From an uncultured Aquimarina sp. (GTDB lineage Bacteria > Bacteroidota > Bacteroidia > Flavobacteriales > Flavobacteriaceae), in the NCBI RefSeq assembly GCF_947500065.1, contig NZ_CANMQT010000001.1, positions 1-64,000 on the forward strand: a stretch of DNA of 64,000 nt. The letters run 5' to 3'. Positions 7,129 through 25,484 of the stretch are shown piece after piece. The notes under the pieces are model-generated. The model had not been told where the DNA came from and made no database searches. It saw only the letters and a list, made by a program, of their open reading frames with translations. Every line of letters starts with the position of its first letter. Position 1 is the first letter of the stretch. The position numbers and the translations under genes are program-made.

Positions 7129-8412
7129 TTATTCTTTGTTTTTCTTAAAATCTGTTGTAAAAAGATTCGGGTTAATAATCAATTGAGCCCAAGCCCAATT
7201 ATTAGTATTATCATTTGGTCTTCCTCCTTTTATAAGACTCATACTTTCTGAAGCGAACATATGAGAGTATCCAAGGTTCAGTTTTACATTTTTTATGATT
7301 TTCTGTGTAAAAACAACATCCACTTCCTTTCCCAGGTACTTATCCGCATCAGTTGTTAGATCAGCATTGGCCATAAAGTAATGTCCTTTTAATAATACGC
7401 TTGATTCTGAACCAGTTTTGAAAACGAACTTAGCGTATAGATCATTTAAGCCTACATTATTCGCGTGGTTACCTACATAGAAGTAATCCATAAATCCGTT
7501 GAATTTATGATTCGTACCATATAGCGGGAAGAAAGATTTGTTCTTGCTGTCACCATCCTGATCTGTTCCGCTCAATATCTCCACTCCTAATCCATATAAA
7601 ACATTCCCTGGTTTATAAGTAGCTTCTAAAGATATCTGGTAGGCACTGAGATCTGTATCCGCATCTGCTTTTCCGAATTGATAATAAGCACTACCCGCAA
7701 GATTTACTTTGTTTATCGGAAACCTAAAATAAGAGCCCGCAGTTTGTCGATAGAAAACTCCATCTGGTTCATCATTATTAACTCCTGTGAATTTTTGGAA
7801 TCCTGAATTAAGGAATAAAAAACTAGCTGAGCTTTTCTCCCAAGATTTCTTTAAATATGCATATTGCATCGCTTTATAGGTAAAGAATCCTTGGATATTA
7901 AACCCAGTTCCTTCATTAGATTGTCCTTGCTGACTGAAGGCTGCACCTACATCTACTTTGAATGTATTAGTATCATATTTTATCAAAGCAGCATCGTGAA
8001 AACGTCCCTGCATCGCCCAATCAAGTTCTCCAAAAATACGTTGATCATCATAAGAGATAACCTGTCTCCCTGCCTTTAGAGACCATTTTTCATTAAAAAA
8101 TACTTGACCCCAAGCCTGAAACAATGAAAAAGAATCATTACCATCACTTATTAAAATCTGACGTGTATCTCCCCAAGTACTCACATCCTGAACACTAACA
8201 AACAACTTCAATCTTTCCTGTTCATAACCTATATTCAATCTGGTACGTTGGGTTACAAATGCTGCCGGATCTGCATCATCAGGAAATAGATTATTGAATC
8301 CATGACGGTATTCAAACCTTGTTCTTAAATCTGCTTCGATTGTAAGTTGAGAAAATACATTTGTAGTAAAAAAGATTAAAAATAGAACGCATAAGTGTTT
8401 TACTATTTTCAT
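7129..8412 (-). CDS. alginate-export-family outer-membrane beta-barrel
   Basis: 427 aa with a cleavable signal peptide (ends NVFSQ) followed by a barrel of alternating strands. Typical segments are EADLRTRFEYRHGF, WGQVFFNEKWSLKAGRQ and FHDAALIKYD, matching the Alginate_exp/porin-like family. Members form outer-membrane pores. As first gene of the nap operon, directly behind an FNR-like promoter, it probably lets nitrate/nitrite or other anions into the periplasm rather than exporting alginate; no alginate genes are nearby. Family call fairly firm, substrate inferred. Confidence 0.8.
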   Translation of the reverse strand: MKIVKHLCVLFLIFFTTNVFSQLTIEADLRTRFEYRHGFNNLFPDDADPAAFVTQRTRLNIGYEQERLKLFVSVQDVSTWGDTRQILISDGNDSFSLFQAWGQVFFNEKWSLKAGRQVISYDDQRIFGELDWAMQGRFHDAALIKYDTNTFKVDVGAAFSQQGQSNEGTGFNIQGFFTYKAMQYAYLKKSWEKSSASFLFLNSGFQKFTGVNNDEPDGVFYRQTAGSYFRFPINKVNLAGSAYYQFGKADADTDLSAYQISLEATYKPGNVLYGLGVEILSGTDQDGDSKNKSFFPLYGTNHKFNGFMDYFYVGNHANNVGLNDLYAKFVFKTGSESSVLLKGHYFMANADLTTDADKYLGKEVDVVFTQKIIKNVKLNLGYSHMFASESMSLIKGGRPNDNTNNWAWAQLIINPNLFTTDFKKNKE

Positions 8413-8437: not shown

Positions 8438-8480
8438 CAAATGTTAGTTTATTAATCATTTTATAATATGACATTTGTCA
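8438..8480 (-). promoter_or_regulatory. FNR-like box and -7 element driving porin-nap operon
   Basis: A perfect palindrome TGACATTTGTCA (8469-8480) lies upstream of AACATTTG (8438-8445), a -7 element of the Bacteroidota TAnnTTTG kind. Centre-to-centre spacing is 33 bp, as in the other FNR-like promoters of this window. The predicted transcript starts about 19 nt before the porin ATG. Confidence 0.75.
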
Positions 8481-8574: not shown

Positions 8575-10365
8575 TTATAATACAGCAATCTCTCTGCTTA
8601 TTTGATTAAGAGTTTGTTCTTCCTTATTTAAATCTTTTAATAAGAGCTCATTACTTTCTTTAAAACTGATTGTTGCCTTACTAAAGACCTCTCGATAATA
8701 CATAATTCCATCTTGTAAATTTTTTGCAAAAACAGACATATATTTTTGCTGCTTTTTGTCGGCTATTTCATCCAGTTCCTTTACCATATTTTTAAGGTAT
8801 GTAATATAAATAGTAAGTTCTTTTATAAACATATTAGGACGATCTTCTCTGGCTACATTAGAAGACCCATAGATATGATCTGTAATCTCTTTTAAATTCA
8901 TGGTCTTGGAATAATATGCCATATTAGGTCCTGGACAAATAGAAACACCATTACTCTCTACTTTGGTGTCTATATCATTAACCAATAGTGCTGCTGTTCC
9001 TAAACCAACACAGGTGCAAGATTTCTCTATAATTTTATTGTATTTTTTTTGATACATTTCTGGAGAAAGGTCTTCTTTTTCTAATTGGATGATTTTTTTA
9101 TGTTGATATTGTCGTGAGGCTGTACAAATACCTTTTTCTGTAAACTCTTTATTCAAGGCTACATATTTTTTTGGACAAGAACTACCAGGCCTTCCTTTAT
9201 TAATCAACACCTGTTTTTCTATATCTTTTGTGTTTCCTTTTAAGCTATTAAATGGAACTCCTAAGGGAGAAATATCACTTAAATACAAATCCTCTTCCTT
9301 TGCTTTTACTAGTTTACCCAAGGTTTCATTATCTACAGAGGTTGCCTCTGGAACCAGAAGAAATGGTGTACCCCATCCAATAGAATCTACTTCATAATAG
9401 TCCTGAATAAATTGATGTTCTCCTGCGTTACCTACACCTCCTTGAGCGGTTATTTTAATATCTAATACAGATTGAGGAACAGCTCTTTCTTTAGCCGATA
9501 ATGCACTAATTAAAATAGCATGAATAGATTGAATTAATTCTTCTCTATTGTCTCTAAATTGAGCTAGAATTGGTCCTAATAAATACCCATCAGTAGCAAA
9601 TGCATGGCCGCCACAATTAAGTCCCGATTCAATTCTATATTCTGAGACCCAAATTCCTTTTTTAGCTAAAAACTTACCCTGAATTAAGGCTGATCTATAG
9701 TCACTTACTTTTAAAACAATTTTCTTCTTTATGGTGCCATGTACGTCTGGAAAAAAATCTTCAAATTGCTCAATATAGCTATATAGCCTTGGATTCATTC
9801 CTGCTGACAGGATTAAGGATGAACATAAATCGCTATTTGCATATCCTCTTAATGCAGCATGTGCATCGTTATATATAGAAGGTAATTTTTCTTTATGAAG
9901 ATAATTTTCTTTATCAACTTTGGTCATGATATTAACATCAATACTGCCCATTGTTAAGTTCTTTTCTACCCAGTTTTTGATTTCTTGTACATTAAAGTTA
10001 TTAGACATCAACTCTTGGAATTGTTGCTTTAATACTGAAGTATCTGGTAGTATGTTGATATATTGTTTTAAATCACCATGATATCCGTTTGCAATGTTTT
10101 TAAGGTTTTCAAATTTCTTTTCTGCCAGATTATTGATCAAATTAAGATATGAAGTAATTCTTTTAGCTCTAAAATCCTCTATACTTTCGGTTATCTCATT
10201 ATAGGCAATCTGAAATTTAGTGCAATATGTTTTTCTTAATTTTTCTAAGAGTATATCGTCTACCAATGAGATTGCAGAATCGATTCCTAAATGTGAAACT
10301 TTTAATGGTGTATCAATGGTAAATCCAATTCCCATAACGGGAATATGAAATGTATGTGCTTTCAT
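8575..10365 (-). CDS. conserved protein of unknown function (596 aa)
   Basis: I do not recognise a characterised family. The N-terminus (MGIGFTIDTPLKVSHLGID) and the motif TAQGGVGNAGEHQF followed by DSIGWGTPFLLVPEA recall flavin-dependent TIM-barrel enzymes such as nitronate monooxygenases, but the match is from memory and weak. The C-terminal half has scattered cysteines (SSCPKK, GICTAS, KSCTCVGLG, ICPGPN) that could bind metal, then a helical, probably coiled-coil tail. It is predicted cytoplasmic, with no signal or TM. An FNR-like promoter lies about 100 bp upstream, placing it in the same regulon as the nap and Usp genes. Confidence 0.6.
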   Translation of the reverse strand: MKAHTFHIPVMGIGFTIDTPLKVSHLGIDSAISLVDDILLEKLRKTYCTKFQIAYNEITESIEDFRAKRITSYLNLINNLAEKKFENLKNIANGYHGDLKQYINILPDTSVLKQQFQELMSNNFNVQEIKNWVEKNLTMGSIDVNIMTKVDKENYLHKEKLPSIYNDAHAALRGYANSDLCSSLILSAGMNPRLYSYIEQFEDFFPDVHGTIKKKIVLKVSDYRSALIQGKFLAKKGIWVSEYRIESGLNCGGHAFATDGYLLGPILAQFRDNREELIQSIHAILISALSAKERAVPQSVLDIKITAQGGVGNAGEHQFIQDYYEVDSIGWGTPFLLVPEATSVDNETLGKLVKAKEEDLYLSDISPLGVPFNSLKGNTKDIEKQVLINKGRPGSSCPKKYVALNKEFTEKGICTASRQYQHKKIIQLEKEDLSPEMYQKKYNKIIEKSCTCVGLGTAALLVNDIDTKVESNGVSICPGPNMAYYSKTMNLKEITDHIYGSSNVAREDRPNMFIKELTIYITYLKNMVKELDEIADKKQQKYMSVFAKNLQDGIMYYREVFSKATISFKESNELLLKDLNKEEQTLNQISREIAVL

Positions 10366-19197: not shown

Positions 19198-20046
19198 ATG
19201 AAAAGAATACTTGTTCCCACAGATTTTTCAAATAATGCATACAGTGCTCTTTTTTATGCTACACGATTATTTCAGGATCAAGCATGTAAATTTTACATCT
19301 TAAACACTTTTAAGGTAAATACTCCGGTTTTAACAAGTAGGATTGATACTAGCAAAGGAGATTTATTATATCAAAAACTGAGTGCTGAGTCTAAAGATTC
19401 ATTAACACAAATATTTCATTCAATTACTAGAGATACCGATGACCTTAACCATACTTTTGAAGCTATCTCTGTTTCTAAAGACTTAACAGAAACAATTCAT
19501 AAAACTATCGAAAGGAATAATATAGATCTGGTGGTTATGGGTACAAAAGGTGCTACCGGGACTGCCAGTCTTTTTATGGGAAGTAATACGGTTAAGGTTA
19601 TTCAAAAAACTCATAATTGTCCCGTTTTGGTAGTTCCGGATGAGTACGATTTCGAAAAGCCGATGGAGATCGCTTTCCCAACAGATTTTAGACGATTTTA
19701 TATAGCAGAAGAATTAAAACCATTAATAGATATTGCTTCTTTGTTTGGTTCTAACATAAGAATTTTTCATATCCATGAAGAGGAAAAGCTAGATGAACTA
19801 CAAGATCATAATTACAATTCTCTAAAAAAATATCTTAAAGATTTTACACATAGTATTCACTGGATATCCAAACTTGATCAAAAGTCTAAACTTATTAATG
19901 ATTTCATTAACCAATTAAACATCAACTTATTAGTGATGGTCAATTATCGACATAGTCTTATAGAAAGTATAACTCATGAGCCAGTCATCAAAAAGTTGGG
20001 ATTTCACGCATCAGTTCCTTTTCTGGTAATACCGGATGCTAGCTGA
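19198..20046 (+). CDS. universal stress protein, tandem array member 5
   Basis: 282 aa. Domain 1 starts KRILVPTDFSNNAYSALFYA with a canonical loop GTKGATGTASLFMGSNT. Domain 2 starts EIAFPTDFRRFYIAEEL. It has its own FNR-like promoter and stands about 70 nt before the next unit, so it is probably a separate transcript. Its second domain resembles that of member 1 (SLIESITHEPVIKK versus SFIDKLTREPVIKT), suggesting the array grew by repeated duplication. Confidence 0.9.
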   Translation: MKRILVPTDFSNNAYSALFYATRLFQDQACKFYILNTFKVNTPVLTSRIDTSKGDLLYQKLSAESKDSLTQIFHSITRDTDDLNHTFEAISVSKDLTETIHKTIERNNIDLVVMGTKGATGTASLFMGSNTVKVIQKTHNCPVLVVPDEYDFEKPMEIAFPTDFRRFYIAEELKPLIDIASLFGSNIRIFHIHEEEKLDELQDHNYNSLKKYLKDFTHSIHWISKLDQKSKLINDFINQLNINLLVMVNYRHSLIESITHEPVIKKLGFHASVPFLVIPDAS

Positions 20047-20086
20047 CAATTATCATAGTTTTTAACAGAGAATGATCATACATTTA
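20044..20086 (+). promoter_or_regulatory. FNR-like box and -7 element, usp member 6 operon
   Basis: TGACAATTATCA (20044-20055), which overlaps the stop codon of member 5, and TACATTTA (20079-20086), 33 bp centre to centre. The ATG is at 20115. Confidence 0.7.
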
Positions 20087-20114: not shown

Positions 20115-20966
20115 ATGAAAAAGAAGATTTTATTGCCAACAGATTTTTCTAAAAACGCATGGAACGCTATGAGCTATGCTATTGAGCTTTATAAAAATGA
20201 GGAATGTGATTTCTACGTCCTCAATGTTTTTAACGCTACAGGCTATGCATTAGAAAGTATGATGGTTCCTGAACCGGGAGAAAGAATGTATGAAGAAGCT
20301 AAAGAGAAATCAGAAAAAGGGCTTGGTAAAATTTTAGAACGACTTTCTTTTAGAGACCAATATACAAATCACAAGTTCTTTATGGTTTCACAATTTAATA
20401 GCTTACTCGAAGGGATTAAGGATCTCGTAGATAAACAAGACATAGAAATGGTTATCATGGGAACTAAAGGAGCTACTAATGCGGGTGATGTCATCTATGG
20501 CAGTAATACTGTTTTAGTAATGGAAAAAGTAAGAAACTGTCCTGTAATGGCAATCCCAGAAGATGTAATATATACAGAACCTAAGGAAATTGTATTCCCT
20601 ACAGATTATGAAACACATTTTAAACGCAGAGAGCTACAATACTTGATCGAAATTGCCAAAATTAGTAATGCAGCGGTTCGTTTTCTTCACGTCTCCAATG
20701 AAGATACCTTAAGTGATGAACAAAAAAGTAATCAAAAATTATTGAAAGAATATTTTGAAACTATACCTCATACATTTCACACCTTGCGTAATGTGGATGT
20801 AAAAGGAGGACTCAGTGCTTTTGTAGAAAGTAGAAATAGCGACATGATCACTTTTATAAATAGGAAACATAGTTTCTTTGGGAGTATATTTTCTAGACCC
20901 ATGGTTAAAGACCTCGGATACCATTCTAAAGTGCCAGTATTAGCGTTACATGATATTAAAAATTAA
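20115..20966 (+). CDS. universal stress protein, tandem array member 6
   Basis: 283 aa. Domain 1 begins KKILLPTDFSKNAWNAMSYA. The loop reads GTKGATNAGDVIYGSNT: Asn replaces the third glycine, but the distal GSNT is kept. Domain 2 begins EIVFPTDYETHFKRREL. It heads a plus-strand operon with the next three genes (gaps of 12, 36 and 13 nt). This links Usp function to the eRF1-like, ATP-cone/nuclease and beta-CASP proteins, all suggestive of translation or RNA turnover under stress. Confidence 0.9.
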   Translation: MKKKILLPTDFSKNAWNAMSYAIELYKNEECDFYVLNVFNATGYALESMMVPEPGERMYEEAKEKSEKGLGKILERLSFRDQYTNHKFFMVSQFNSLLEGIKDLVDKQDIEMVIMGTKGATNAGDVIYGSNTVLVMEKVRNCPVMAIPEDVIYTEPKEIVFPTDYETHFKRRELQYLIEIAKISNAAVRFLHVSNEDTLSDEQKSNQKLLKEYFETIPHTFHTLRNVDVKGGLSAFVESRNSDMITFINRKHSFFGSIFSRPMVKDLGYHSKVPVLALHDIKN

Positions 20967-20978
20967 AACCTACTAGTT

Positions 20979-21401
20979 ATGAAAAACACAGGAATATGGA
21001 TGGATAAGGAAAAAGCCTATATCATCGACATAAAAGAAAATAAAGAAGACATGATCACGATTTTTTCCGAAATAGAAGATTATCGTATTCACGGAGGTTC
21101 AGGAACACGTTTTAAAGGTGGACCGCAAGATGTAGTTCAGGATAGTAAATACCTAGAGCGTGAAAAGAATCAGTTTAAAACATATTTTAAAAAAATAATT
21201 CCTTACATCGAAAATGCTGATAAGATTGTAATTTATGGACCCGCAGAAGCCGGTGAAAAATTCCATAAAGAATTAGAAGAAAATTATAAGAAAATAGGCA
21301 AAAAAGTAAAAGCCGTTCTCAAAGCAGACAGTATGACCGAAAATCAAACAAAAGCTTTGATTCGGGATTATTTCAAGAATTATAAGCCACATATTTTATA
21401 A
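20979..21401 (+). CDS. small protein, possibly eRF1-domain-like
   Basis: 140 aa, cytoplasmic. It begins MKNTGIWMDKEKAYII and has a central motif KIVIYGPAEAGEKFHKEL with a following helix rich in lysine. That motif resembles the core of bacterial proteins related to eRF1/Vms1-type release factors (the baeRF group), but it is recalled rather than searched and the protein is short. It follows the usp gene by 12 nt and precedes the nuclease-like gene, so the genes are co-expressed. If the match is right it could act on stalled ribosomes during stress. Confidence 0.5.
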   Translation: MKNTGIWMDKEKAYIIDIKENKEDMITIFSEIEDYRIHGGSGTRFKGGPQDVVQDSKYLEREKNQFKTYFKKIIPYIENADKIVIYGPAEAGEKFHKELEENYKKIGKKVKAVLKADSMTENQTKALIRDYFKNYKPHIL

Positions 21402-21437
21402 GAATCCTCCAATAGCAATCTGTTTAGTTTTAAATCT

Positions 21438-22280
21438 ATGAAAAAGCAGGATTTCGACATCCTAAAATCTTCTGGAAAAAGAGTGAAGTTCTCATTAAGG
21501 AAATTGCAGAATTCACTCAGAAGAAGTGGGGCAGATGATAAAACTATTGAACATATTATTGACACCGTTAGAGATGAATTATACCAAGGCATTTCTACAA
21601 AGGAGATTTACAACAGAGCTTTTGCCTTACTTAAAAAGCAAAAATCTGTTTTTGCTTCGAAATACAAACTCAAAAAGGCTATTTATGAATTAGGGCCTAC
21701 TGGTTTTCCGTTCGAGAGCTTCGTAGCGGCTATTCTTAAGCAATCTGGATATCAAGTCAATATTGGACAAATCATATCCGGCAAATGTGTTTCTCATGAA
21801 GTTGATGTAGTTGCTAAGAAAAATACAGATTATATTGTTATTGAATGTAAATTTCATAGTGAAGAAGGGCGTAATTGTAATGTTAAAATCCCTTTATATA
21901 TACACTCCAGATATCAAGATATCCTTAATAATTTTGAAAATAAAAAAAATAACCTGATTACCCCTAATCAAGGATGGGTAGTGACGAATACTCGGTTCAC
22001 AAAAGATGCTATCCAATATGGTGAGTGTGCGGGTTTATATTTACTGAGTTGGGATTATCCAAAAGCTAATGGCCTAAAGGACAGAATTGACCGCTTAGGA
22101 TTATATCCAATCACTGTATCTACACTCCTTACTAATAGAGAGAAACAGTTTTTATTGAGTAGGGATATTGTTTTGTGTAAACAGCTAAGAGGAGATATGT
22201 TTTACCTTGATCATTTAGGCATTTCCGAAAAGAGAAAGCAAAAAATACTGGATGAAATAAATAAGTTATGTAACGAATAA
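21438..22280 (+). CDS. ATP-cone / Mrr-like nuclease fusion
   Basis: 280 aa. The N-terminal 90 residues look like an ATP-cone (SGKRVKFSLRKLQNSLRRSGA... IYNRAFALLKKQ), the nucleotide-sensing module of ribonucleotide reductases and NrdR. The rest contains a PD-(D/E)xK-type core: HEVDVVAKKNTDYIVIECKFH, as in Mrr-family restriction endonucleases. The start ATG at 21438 is 36 nt after the previous gene. The fusion suggests a nuclease controlled by nucleotide levels. Target unknown; no methyltransferase partner lies next to it, so classical restriction is unlikely. Confidence 0.75.
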   Translation: MKKQDFDILKSSGKRVKFSLRKLQNSLRRSGADDKTIEHIIDTVRDELYQGISTKEIYNRAFALLKKQKSVFASKYKLKKAIYELGPTGFPFESFVAAILKQSGYQVNIGQIISGKCVSHEVDVVAKKNTDYIVIECKFHSEEGRNCNVKIPLYIHSRYQDILNNFENKKNNLITPNQGWVVTNTRFTKDAIQYGECAGLYLLSWDYPKANGLKDRIDRLGLYPITVSTLLTNREKQFLLSRDIVLCKQLRGDMFYLDHLGISEKRKQKILDEINKLCNE

Positions 22281-22293
22281 AAAGGATCTTCTT

Positions 22294-23664
22294 ATGTCAC
22301 TGGTCAAAATTCATTTTCTTGGAGCAGCAAAAACCGTAACAGGTTCAAAATTTTATATAGAAACACCACAGAAAAACATTTTAATCGACTGTGGAATGTT
22401 TCAAGGTATTAAAGAACTACGAGAGTTAAACTGGAAACCTTTTCCGATGGATACTTCTGTAATTGACACAGTGCTGCTCACTCATGGACATCTGGATCAT
22501 ACTGGTTATTTACCGAGATTAGTTAAGCAAGGATTCCGAGGCGATATTATAGGAACCGCCCCTACTCTGGCAATTACAGAAATTATTCTAAGAGATAGCG
22601 CCAAAATTCACGAAGAAGAAGCCGATAAAGCAAATAAAGAAAGGTATTCTAAACATGATCCAGCTTTACCATTTTATACCCTAAAAGATGCAGAAAAAAC
22701 ATTGCAATATTTTAAAACCAAAGAAAAGGACAACTGGATTTCATTGTCAGATGATATTGAATATAGATTTAGATATAACGGACATATTATAGGAGCTTGC
22801 TTTATAGAATTGAATCTTTTTGAAAAAACCTTAGTATTCTCTGGCGATATAGGAAGACCTGACGATGTATTGCTTCAAGCTCCTGAAAAACCAACATGGG
22901 TAGATTTTCTTTTTATGGAAAGTACGTATGGTAACAAACTGCATCCAGATCAAGATGTAGAAGAGAAATTAATCCAATTGATAAACGAAACCTTATACAA
23001 AAGAGGAACACTTATTATCCCATCTTTTGCGGTAGAACGTTTACAGACATTGATGTATCTTTTATGGAAGCTATATCAAAAAAACAAAATCCCGAACATT
23101 CCCATCTTCGTGGATAGTCCAATGGGCAATAATGTGCTGTCAGTATTTGAACAATTTCCGGATTGGCATAAACTACCAATGAAAGACTATTACGCCATAT
23201 GTAATCATATTAATATTGTTACATCGTATAAAGAAACATGGGAAACAATTGATGATCCCAGACCAAAAATTGTAATTGCAGGTAGTGGAATGGTTACTGG
23301 AGGCAGAGTTTTAACCTACCTAAAACAACTTATAGATATTACCACCACATCTGTTCTTTTAGTAGGATATCAAGCAGAAGGAACTCGTGGCAGACAATTA
23401 CAGGATGGAGCCCATGAAATCAAATTGTATGGTAAATATTATCCGGTAAAAGCGCAAATACATCATATAGAAAGTCTGTCTGCTCATGCCGATCAATATG
23501 AATTGCTTGATTGGGTCAGTAAAATTAAAAACATCCCGGAAAAAGTCTTTCTTATTCATGGAGAACCATCTGCTTCAGAAGCATTTAACATTAAATTACG
23601 AGATACTTTTAATTGGAACATCCATATTCCCAAACTCAATGAAGTTCAAGAGATTATTATCTAA
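22294..23664 (+). CDS. MBL-fold beta-CASP RNA nuclease
   Basis: 456 aa. Metallo-beta-lactamase motifs are present: THGHLDHTG (motif 2), FSGDIGRP (motif 4), and the beta-CASP signatures GSGMVTGGR, SLSAHADQ and FLIHGEP. This is the CPSF-100/YSH1-like family; bacterial members are zinc-dependent RNA-processing nucleases. It is cytoplasmic, of normal full length, and last in the usp6 operon (13 nt behind the nuclease-fusion gene). With the eRF1-like protein it suggests RNA or ribosome-associated turnover as the theme of the operon. Confidence 0.88.
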   Translation: MSLVKIHFLGAAKTVTGSKFYIETPQKNILIDCGMFQGIKELRELNWKPFPMDTSVIDTVLLTHGHLDHTGYLPRLVKQGFRGDIIGTAPTLAITEIILRDSAKIHEEEADKANKERYSKHDPALPFYTLKDAEKTLQYFKTKEKDNWISLSDDIEYRFRYNGHIIGACFIELNLFEKTLVFSGDIGRPDDVLLQAPEKPTWVDFLFMESTYGNKLHPDQDVEEKLIQLINETLYKRGTLIIPSFAVERLQTLMYLLWKLYQKNKIPNIPIFVDSPMGNNVLSVFEQFPDWHKLPMKDYYAICNHINIVTSYKETWETIDDPRPKIVIAGSGMVTGGRVLTYLKQLIDITTTSVLLVGYQAEGTRGRQLQDGAHEIKLYGKYYPVKAQIHHIESLSAHADQYELLDWVSKIKNIPEKVFLIHGEPSASEAFNIKLRDTFNWNIHIPKLNEVQEIII

Positions 23665-23918: not shown

Positions 23919-23999
23919 TTGACGCTTTTCTTTAACATTTCTTTCATAATGCACAACAGGCTAATCAAACTACTTGTAATCTTTAAAAAAAATAAAGCC

Positions 24000-24413
24000 A
24001 TGACAACCAAAATAAATACAACAAACAAAGATCTTAAAGATATCCATTTCGATACGCTAGAATCAAAATCTAGCTTACAGTTTATTGAAGATGAAGTATT
24101 ATTTATCAATCAGTTACTACACTCCTATGTTTTCGAACCAACAACTCCCAACCTTTTTGAACGCTTACAGGAATTTAGACTTGAAATTGAAAGAGTTAAA
24201 AAGGAAATAGATACACTACACGAAGAGATACGAAAACACGAAAACGAATTGGGTGGAATGCTAGAATGTGATACCATTTCCTGCGATCACTATTATTATG
24301 AAGAACACGAATCATTAAAAAAACGCTTTAATGATTTTTACAAGAATTTCCGCAAGCTAAAATCTGAGGTATTTAATTATGCAGGTGGTATTCTAAAAAA
24401 CAATAAAAAATGA
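24000..24413 (+). CDS. coiled-coil protein flanking Hsp20, paralogue 1
   Basis: The track ORF begins at 23751, but its first 83 codons run through the inverted-repeat element. ATG 24000 (MTTKINTTNKDLKDI) gives a sensible 137-aa protein. It is mostly helical: FIEDEVLFINQLLHSYVFEP, then a heptad-like stretch FRLEIERVKKEIDTLHEEI, and a Cys/His/Tyr patch (ECDTISCDHYYYEEH). It is related to the protein at 25041 (FIKDEQRFLNDLIENYTM; common tail pattern). No known family. Position on both sides of a small heat-shock gene suggests a chaperone-associated role. Confidence 0.6.
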   Translation: MTTKINTTNKDLKDIHFDTLESKSSLQFIEDEVLFINQLLHSYVFEPTTPNLFERLQEFRLEIERVKKEIDTLHEEIRKHENELGGMLECDTISCDHYYYEEHESLKKRFNDFYKNFRKLKSEVFNYAGGILKNNKK

Positions 24414-24431
24414 ATTCAATAAGAGGTAAAC

Positions 24432-24474
24432 TGATAATTATCATTTTTTTCAACTTGTTAAAAACCTACATTTA
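24432..24474 (+). promoter_or_regulatory. FNR-like box and -7 element, hsp20
   Basis: TGATAATTATCA (24432-24443) is a perfect 12-bp palindrome, and TACATTTA (24467-24474) lies at exactly the 33-bp centre spacing. The start codon of hsp20 follows at 24516. Confidence 0.75.
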
Positions 24475-24515: not shown

Positions 24516-24959
24516 ATGTCAATAATTAAATTTAACAAAAACAGGTTCCCATGGTTCAATGATAGAGTTTCTAATTGGATGGATACTGATAATTTCTTTG
24601 CTGATGATTTCTTTATCAAAGACAGAAACTTACCTGCAATGAATGTAAAAGAACATAAGAATGATTTTGAAATTGAACTTGCAGTTCCTGGGTTTTCAAA
24701 AAAAGATATCGAAGTAACCATGGAAGATGATGTATTACACATCTGTGCAGAAAAAAGTAAGGAAGAAGTAGAAGAAGATAAGGATTACACTCGTAAAGAA
24801 TTTAACTATAGTTCTTTTGACAGAAAGTTACAATTACCTACTAGTGTAGATCAAAACGAAGAGGTTAAAGCGAAATACAAAAATGGTGTTCTTACACTCA
24901 ATCTATTGAAAAGAGAAGAGATAAAAGAACAACCTAAAAAAGTAATCGAGATAGATTAA
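24516..24959 (+). CDS. small heat-shock protein Hsp20 (alpha-crystallin domain)
   Basis: 147 aa with the alpha-crystallin fold: FEIELAVPGFSKKDIEVTMEDDVLHI, and the C-terminal GVLTL motif (YKNGVLTLNLLKR). The N-terminal arm is short (about 40 residues). Such proteins bind unfolding proteins without ATP. The promoter carries an FNR-like site rather than an obvious heat-shock element, so expression may follow oxygen or redox state. The next gene starts 81 nt downstream. Confidence 0.92.
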   Translation: MSIIKFNKNRFPWFNDRVSNWMDTDNFFADDFFIKDRNLPAMNVKEHKNDFEIELAVPGFSKKDIEVTMEDDVLHICAEKSKEEVEEDKDYTRKEFNYSSFDRKLQLPTSVDQNEEVKAKYKNGVLTLNLLKREEIKEQPKKVIEID

Positions 24960-25040: not shown

Positions 25041-25484
25041 ATGAAATCAAAAAAACCAAACATCAAATACGTAGAGTGGAAAAGTGCAGAAGAATTGCAT
25101 GAAGCTTCTCTTATTTGGATTTCAGAGTTAAAGTTCATCAAAGATGAGCAACGTTTTCTGAATGATCTTATAGAAAATTACACCATGCAATTGATCTCAG
25201 AAAAGACTTTTGAAAAAAGTAGCAAAATAATTAATGAACTGAATCTAAAAAGAAAAGAGGTCAATCCTTTACTAAAAAAGGTAATAAAACACTGTAACGA
25301 GCTTACCATACTCGTTGACGGCATTGATCAACCGGAAGAAGAAAAAAAGTACAAAGAAAATCATCAAGAATTATTAGTCGAAGTAAGTGCTTATTTTGAT
25401 AACTATAAACAGACCAAAAGAAGGATTTTTGATCTTATCAAAACTATTATCAAGACTGGTAAACAAAAACGTTTATTAAACTAA
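25041..25484 (+). CDS. coiled-coil protein flanking Hsp20, paralogue 2
   Basis: 147 aa, almost wholly alpha-helical and lysine/glutamate-rich. It shares with the 24000-24413 product the opening FIKDEQRFLNDLIENY, the paired central helices and a YFDNYKQTKRRIFDLIK tail (the paralogue has FYKNFRKLKSEVFNY). It lacks the paralogue's Cys-Asp-His-Tyr patch. Function unknown. Probably transcribed with hsp20. Confidence 0.6.
   Translation: MKSKKPNIKYVEWKSAEELHEASLIWISELKFIKDEQRFLNDLIENYTMQLISEKTFEKSSKIINELNLKRKEVNPLLKKVIKHCNELTILVDGIDQPEEEKKYKENHQELLVEVSAYFDNYKQTKRRIFDLIKTIIKTGKQKRLLN

Follow-up and report, generated by a model that had tools for sequence, protein, structure and literature searches.

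An Aquimarina operon that may couple translation quieting to RNA breakdown joins Usp and an eRF1-like core to a linked pair of nucleases

Several described systems share parts with the locus analyzed here. Among proteins of the eRF1 family, Balon is a ribosome hibernation factor that occurs in stress operons (PMC10901736), and Burroughs and Aravind proposed that bacterial eRF1-like proteins, core-only families included, act in rescue or shutdown (PMC6514570). The Burkholderia lxa locus contains several universal stress protein (Usp) genes and a heat-shock protein (PMC6127331). In the Bradyrhizobium microoxia regulon, genes for a metallo-beta-lactamase (MBL) protein, a phosphoribosyl pyrophosphate (PRPP) synthetase, a phosphorylase and a 'translational machinery protein' are up (PMC6515984). 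Here we examine a stretch of 64,000 nucleotides (nt) from an uncultured Aquimarina sp. of the Flavobacteriaceae (contig NZ_CANMQT010000001.1, positions 1 to 64,000; 'the window'), in which genes for Usp, an eRF1-like protein, an ATP-cone nuclease and a beta-CASP nuclease follow one another. Like the lxa locus, the window has several Usp genes and a heat-shock protein, Hsp20; its usp cluster and hsp20 share a CRP/FNR-type box, which may respond to oxygen. The proteobacterial low-oxygen loci differ in organism, regulator and gene order. With Balon and the baeRF proteins (PMC10901736, PMC6514570) it has in common an eRF1-family fold encoded in a stress operon with Hsp20. We suggest, with somewhat more confidence than doubt, that the four genes form a low-oxygen, energy-stress operon that combines translation quieting with ATP-modulated RNA breakdown.

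The original prediction described a four-gene operon with short gaps. This layout was confirmed: four ATG-started open reading frames lie on the forward strand, separated by 12, 36 and 13 nt, and they are probably co-transcribed. The features are:

20043 to 20056, forward strand: palindromic box of CRP/FNR type, CTGACAATTATCAT, 58 nt ahead of the usp start (motif count in the window and in relatives)
20115 to 20966, forward strand: Usp, gene 1 of the operon (Pfam PF00582, 3.5e-23)
20979 to 21401, forward strand: predicted isolated eRF1 middle-domain protein with an RNase H fold, termed eRF-core (AlphaFold and Foldseek; Q50 codon at 21126 to 21128)
21438 to 22280, forward strand: ATP-cone plus AF1548/Mrr-type PD-(D/E)xK nuclease, nuc (Pfam ATP-cone and Mrr_cat; 1y88 match)
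22294 to 23664, forward strand: beta-CASP metallo-beta-lactamase ribonuclease with an RMMBL domain and no KH domain, casp (Pfam Beta-Casp and RMMBL; TTHA0252 match)
24431 to 24444, forward strand: another box of this type, CTGATAATTATCAT, ahead of hsp20 (24516 to 24959), marking a wider regulon (same motif; relatives)

The two nucleases are tightly linked. We surveyed 201 genomes of Flavobacteriaceae, roughly one for each genus. The nuclease was found in 83 and the beta-CASP protein in 79, and all 79 of the latter also encode the nuclease (Fisher p 1e-51, uncorrected for relatedness). The beta-CASP genes number 88; for 84 of them a nuclease gene is encoded on the same strand no more than 500 nt away, and in 83 of these pairs the beta-CASP gene is the downstream one. 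The median gap is 22.5 nt. Loci sharing the window's arrangement are termed type I, and those of a sister subfamily with phosphorylase and PRPP synthetase clusters type II. In a quick tree of the beta-CASP proteins, the type-I sequences form one supported, long-branched group of 29 rows, suggesting that the linkage is old and not a recent copy. The gene order recurs in relatives, and the aspartate and ECK residues of the nuclease are kept in its homologues; thus neither a gene order unique to this genome nor a loss of catalytic residues, both of which the original prediction had named as evidence against it, was found. No description of the nuclease/beta-CASP linkage, of its form with salvage enzymes, or of its joining to Usp and eRF-core was found in the open-access papers searched. 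Each family and the ATP-cone/nuclease fusion are already known; the strict linkage is, judged by those papers, seemingly new.

The nuclease begins with an ATP-cone (Pfam 8.7e-6; 26.6 bits against a cut-off of 25.8), followed by an Mrr_cat domain (3.2e-7, above the gathering cut-off). In its structural model, with a predicted local distance difference test (pLDDT) score of 91, the nuclease part matches AF1548 (PDB 1y88; sequence E 1.5e-25, fold E 2.5e-15), and the N terminus matches the ATP-cones of NrdR and ribonucleotide reductase. D123, E136 and K138, predicted to be the catalytic residues of the PD-(D/E)xK motif, do not vary in either of two alignments, one of 29 and the other of 31 sequences. 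Both domains had been called correctly, but their pairing, regarded as unusual, is an existing AF1548-type family, so the fusion by itself is not new. AF1548 and the proteins named 'ATP cone domain-containing protein' in RefSeq have the same nuclease fold, C-terminal region and D/ECK residues; the 1y88 chain covers the nuclease part only and is titled 'protein of unknown function'. The ATP-cones of ribonucleotide reductase respond to ATP as well as dATP. Three Bacteroidota have a further ATP-cone protein, in which the cone is joined to a putative glucoamylase domain (PF10091; 3.9e-86 in L180). Its gene sits just downstream of the ATP-cone nuclease gene (L180:6179-7714, L181:7187-8716 and L182:1241-2776), a hint that the cone may work as a nucleotide switch for degradative enzymes in general.

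The partner was described as an RNA-type beta-CASP nuclease, and its domains agree: Beta-Casp (3e-32), RMMBL and Lactamase_B are found by Pfam, and the HGHLDH and downstream metal motifs are legible in the sequence. The MBL, beta-CASP and RMMBL architecture is that of the ribonuclease TTHA0252 (E 1.1e-70), type VII Cas14 (E 6.8e-66) and aCPSF1. However, the window protein leaves no space for KH domains such as those at the aCPSF1 N terminus, the CRISPR context of Cas14 is absent, and scores are below both curated cut-offs (391.5 against 800 for the type VII Cas14 model NF045584).

The second gene of the operon was thought to encode a release-factor-like protein. No Pfam or NCBIfam match above cut-off was obtained, and only a few eRF-core members give weak matches below it (eRF1_2, 0.0011; baeRF_family5, 0.0013). 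The AlphaFold model (pLDDT 82.8) retrieves eRF1, aRF1, Pelota and Balon as its top PDB folds in Foldseek, superposes on the eRF1 middle domain (2hst) with template-modelling scores of 0.63/0.65, and has the same order of strands and helices. Because these folds outrank all others, the model indicates that the gene product is an RNase-H-fold middle domain alone. The family assignment therefore stands, by fold, but not as a whole release factor: eRF-core is a single domain of 140 residues, without the decoding (N) and C-terminal domains of a full-length release factor or Balon. A loop glutamine, Q50, is invariant in 19/19 aligned sequences, mostly as GPQ and not GGQ; this is read from the alignment, the loop being of low confidence in the model. 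Balon lacks the GGQ motif, whereas eRF-core, reduced to the middle domain, keeps the loop glutamine.

In most type-I relatives, usp lies directly upstream of eRF-core or nuc. eRF-core is present in 53 of the 201 genomes, and nine of ten examined loci away from the nuclease have usp close upstream or the box directly upstream. The pairing of Usp and eRF-core thus recurs with or without the nucleases, and because eRF-core retains usp or the box when away from them, the operon is best described as two separable modules joined together, Usp with eRF-core and nuclease with beta-CASP.

An FNR-like promoter had been proposed for the operon. The strict FNR consensus, TTGAT-N4-ATCAA, is not enriched in the window (116 matches at two or fewer mismatches against 107 expected). 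It was dropped for this chance-level count and replaced by TGAY-N4-RTCA, a looser CRP/FNR-type box that had been noticed in front of usp and hsp20 and was next looked for in relatives. The intergenic DNA of the window, 11.7 kb in all, holds eight of these boxes, where mononucleotide shuffles give an expected 0.9; the copy at 20043 to 20056 is additional to these eight and overlaps the last codons of the preceding usp. Since the looser motif was picked after inspection of the window, the relatives are the fairer test. In type-I relatives it stands upstream of every hsp20 gene (12/12), about half of the usp genes (46/91) and of the PAS-kinase genes (7/13), no casp gene (0/25) and a single nuc gene (1/28), with a background of 0.022 per 150 nt. 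This distribution is consistent with promoters ahead of usp and hsp20 and with the nucleases being later genes of an operon. The proposed promoter is kept as a CRP/FNR-type box, not as a strict FNR site. A gene for a REC-CRP regulator adjoins the cluster in relatives, and a 66% identical copy is present elsewhere in the window's genome. The operon is probably regulated by oxygen in this organism.

The type II nuclease is about 50% identical to the window subfamily, and its clusters are ordered usp-nuc-casp-nucleoside monophosphate (NMP) phosphorylase-PRPP synthetase. The phosphorylase is of archaeal type (PRK04350/TIGR02645) and scores just below the TIGR03327 AMP phosphorylase cut-off. It resembles the AMP phosphorylase with which archaea degrade NMPs in the pentose bisphosphate pathway, but no ribose-1,5-bisphosphate isomerase or RubisCO was recognized in type II loci. 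On complete plasmids from Pontibacter and from the chlamydial relative Criblamydia, the order is nuc-casp-phosphorylase-PRPP synthetase; on the Criblamydia plasmid, on which that occurrence is based, the cluster is flanked by glycogen phosphorylase and acetate kinase genes. Three metagenome-assembled genomes, L132 (Pyrinomonadaceae), L156 (Eubacteriaceae) and L165 (Verrucomicrobia), were left out as evidence of phylum spread because lone contigs of this kind may be mis-binned. Glycolysis and fermentation genes accompany such loci in other Bacteroidota and Criblamydia; encoded nearby are D-lactate dehydrogenase, phosphofructokinase, aldolase, type II glyceraldehyde-3-phosphate dehydrogenase, GlgP, phosphoketolase or acetate kinase. 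Proteobacterial plasmids encode casp (MBL)-phosphorylase-PRPP synthetase, and the proteobacterial phosphorylase clusters examined differ in having no ATP-cone nuclease. In Bradyrhizobium, the adjacent and similarly annotated MBL, PRPP synthetase and phosphorylase genes bll3115-bll3117 are up in microoxia in both transcript and protein (PMC6515984); from annotation and gene company, we assume that this MBL protein is of the same beta-CASP type. A search with the type II enzyme gave no NMP phosphorylase match in the window's genome. Fermentation of RNA ribose was therefore rejected as a role of the window operon and would be confined to type II relatives.

In several type II-like clusters, L144 (10233-10781) and 13 similar loci, a protein of about 180 residues resembling AAA_28 and deoxynucleoside kinases replaces the phosphorylase and PRPP synthetase. 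Type II beta-CASP proteins are near-identical between genera (L031, L033, L110, L126 and others), and metal-exporting P-type ATPases lie near 57/141 nuclease loci; together these suggest recent horizontal spread.

Based on these observations, we propose the following sequence of events. A CRP/FNR-type regulator would turn on Usp, the isolated eRF1 middle domain and the nuclease pair. eRF-core would act at the peptidyl-transferase centre of the ribosome and lower translation. The beta-CASP enzyme would be the RNA-degrading RNase of the pair, and the ATP-cone nuclease, whose substrate is also likely to be RNA, would have its activity set by ATP or dATP bound to the cone. We infer both the sense of this ATP control and the binding of eRF-core to the ribosome. 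The two nucleases together would degrade surplus RNA to nucleotides, which would pass to NMP phosphorylase and PRPP synthetase in the sister loci and to ordinary salvage in the window's genome. A broader idea, which we regard as doubtful, is that ATP-cones are energy-charge switches on polymer-degrading enzymes, so that falling ATP in low oxygen turns the cell's own RNA into nucleotides and ribose, fuelling salvage and, in type II loci, fermentation. If the proposed role is correct, the operon would represent dedicated, energy-sensed RNA recycling in low oxygen that connects the quieting of ribosomes with RNA breakdown and nucleotide salvage. The AF1548-type nucleases, a family for which a structure titled 'protein of unknown function' was released in 2004, would gain a testable role, and the beta-CASP enzymes related to type VII Cas14 would be linked to ordinary stress.

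Several findings weigh against a single RNA-directed stress operon. Mrr-type folds are known mostly from DNA-cleaving enzymes. In 54/141 nuclease loci no beta-CASP gene lies in the stretch examined, which indicates that the nuclease can work in other settings, and eRF-core is within 2 kb of a nuclease in only 28 of its 53 cases. Type II loci have no CRP/FNR-type box upstream of usp, casp or phosphorylase, so common regulation across the family is not supported. A genome of the same genus (G179) has no match to nuclease, beta-CASP or eRF-core, and the operon is thus patchy even inside the genus. The usual DNA cleavage by related folds and the loci lacking beta-CASP make the main rival a DNA repair or restricting enzyme that dATP/ATP would tune, much as in ribonucleotide reductase, with the RNase and Usp merely co-regulated. 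The Mrr_cat and Hjc-like matches agree with it, as do the restriction enzymes MspJI and AspBHI among the weaker fold matches. We nevertheless consider it unlikely, given how closely the nuclease and an RNA-type beta-CASP enzyme follow each other across genomes, and given the recurrent NMP phosphorylase and PRPP synthetase neighbours; similarity in PADLOC is weak only, and no methylase gene adjoins the nuclease in the window.

The original prediction was of a low-energy ribosome or RNA clearance system. RNA breakdown agrees with our analysis; clearing of ribosomes is less favoured, since in sister loci the genes next to the nuclease pair encode NMP phosphorylase and PRPP synthetase, a setting that speaks more for RNA breakdown with nucleotide and ribose salvage. 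A related proposal is ribosome quality control, in which the eRF-core loop glutamine frees stalled peptides and the nucleases destroy stalled mRNA or damaged rRNA. It draws on the eRF1 middle-domain fold, the invariant Q50 and the roles proposed by Burroughs and Aravind (PMC6514570). The missing decoding and C-terminal domains make it quite improbable, as does the distribution of eRF-core, which otherwise occurs with Usp, the nuclease pair being mostly without eRF-core. Anti-phage defence, with a nuclease that senses nucleotides in the manner of Card1/Can2 and a beta-CASP partner resembling Cas14, would account for weak CARF-nuclease and Csx1 similarity, for Can2, Card1 and Cdn1 among the weaker fold matches, and for type VII Cas14 as a near beta-CASP relative. 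However, the Cas14 model score falls far under its cut-off, the genes that recur nearby belong to stress responses and metabolism rather than to defence, and type I loci show long-term retention. A defence system is thus very improbable and was rejected on locus context and weak scores.

Besides the copy ahead of the operon, boxes lie at window positions 8468, 10465, 11377, 14738, 16325, 24431 (the hsp20 box listed above) and 39051. They are upstream of additional usp genes and of hsp20, as well as of the gene at 7129-8412 and the gene for an uncharacterized protein of 596 residues (8575-10365), and the distribution across the window suggests one regulon. On either side of hsp20 are two paralogous helical proteins of about 140 residues (23994-24413 and 25041-25484), which belong to no known family and are kept in type-I relatives.

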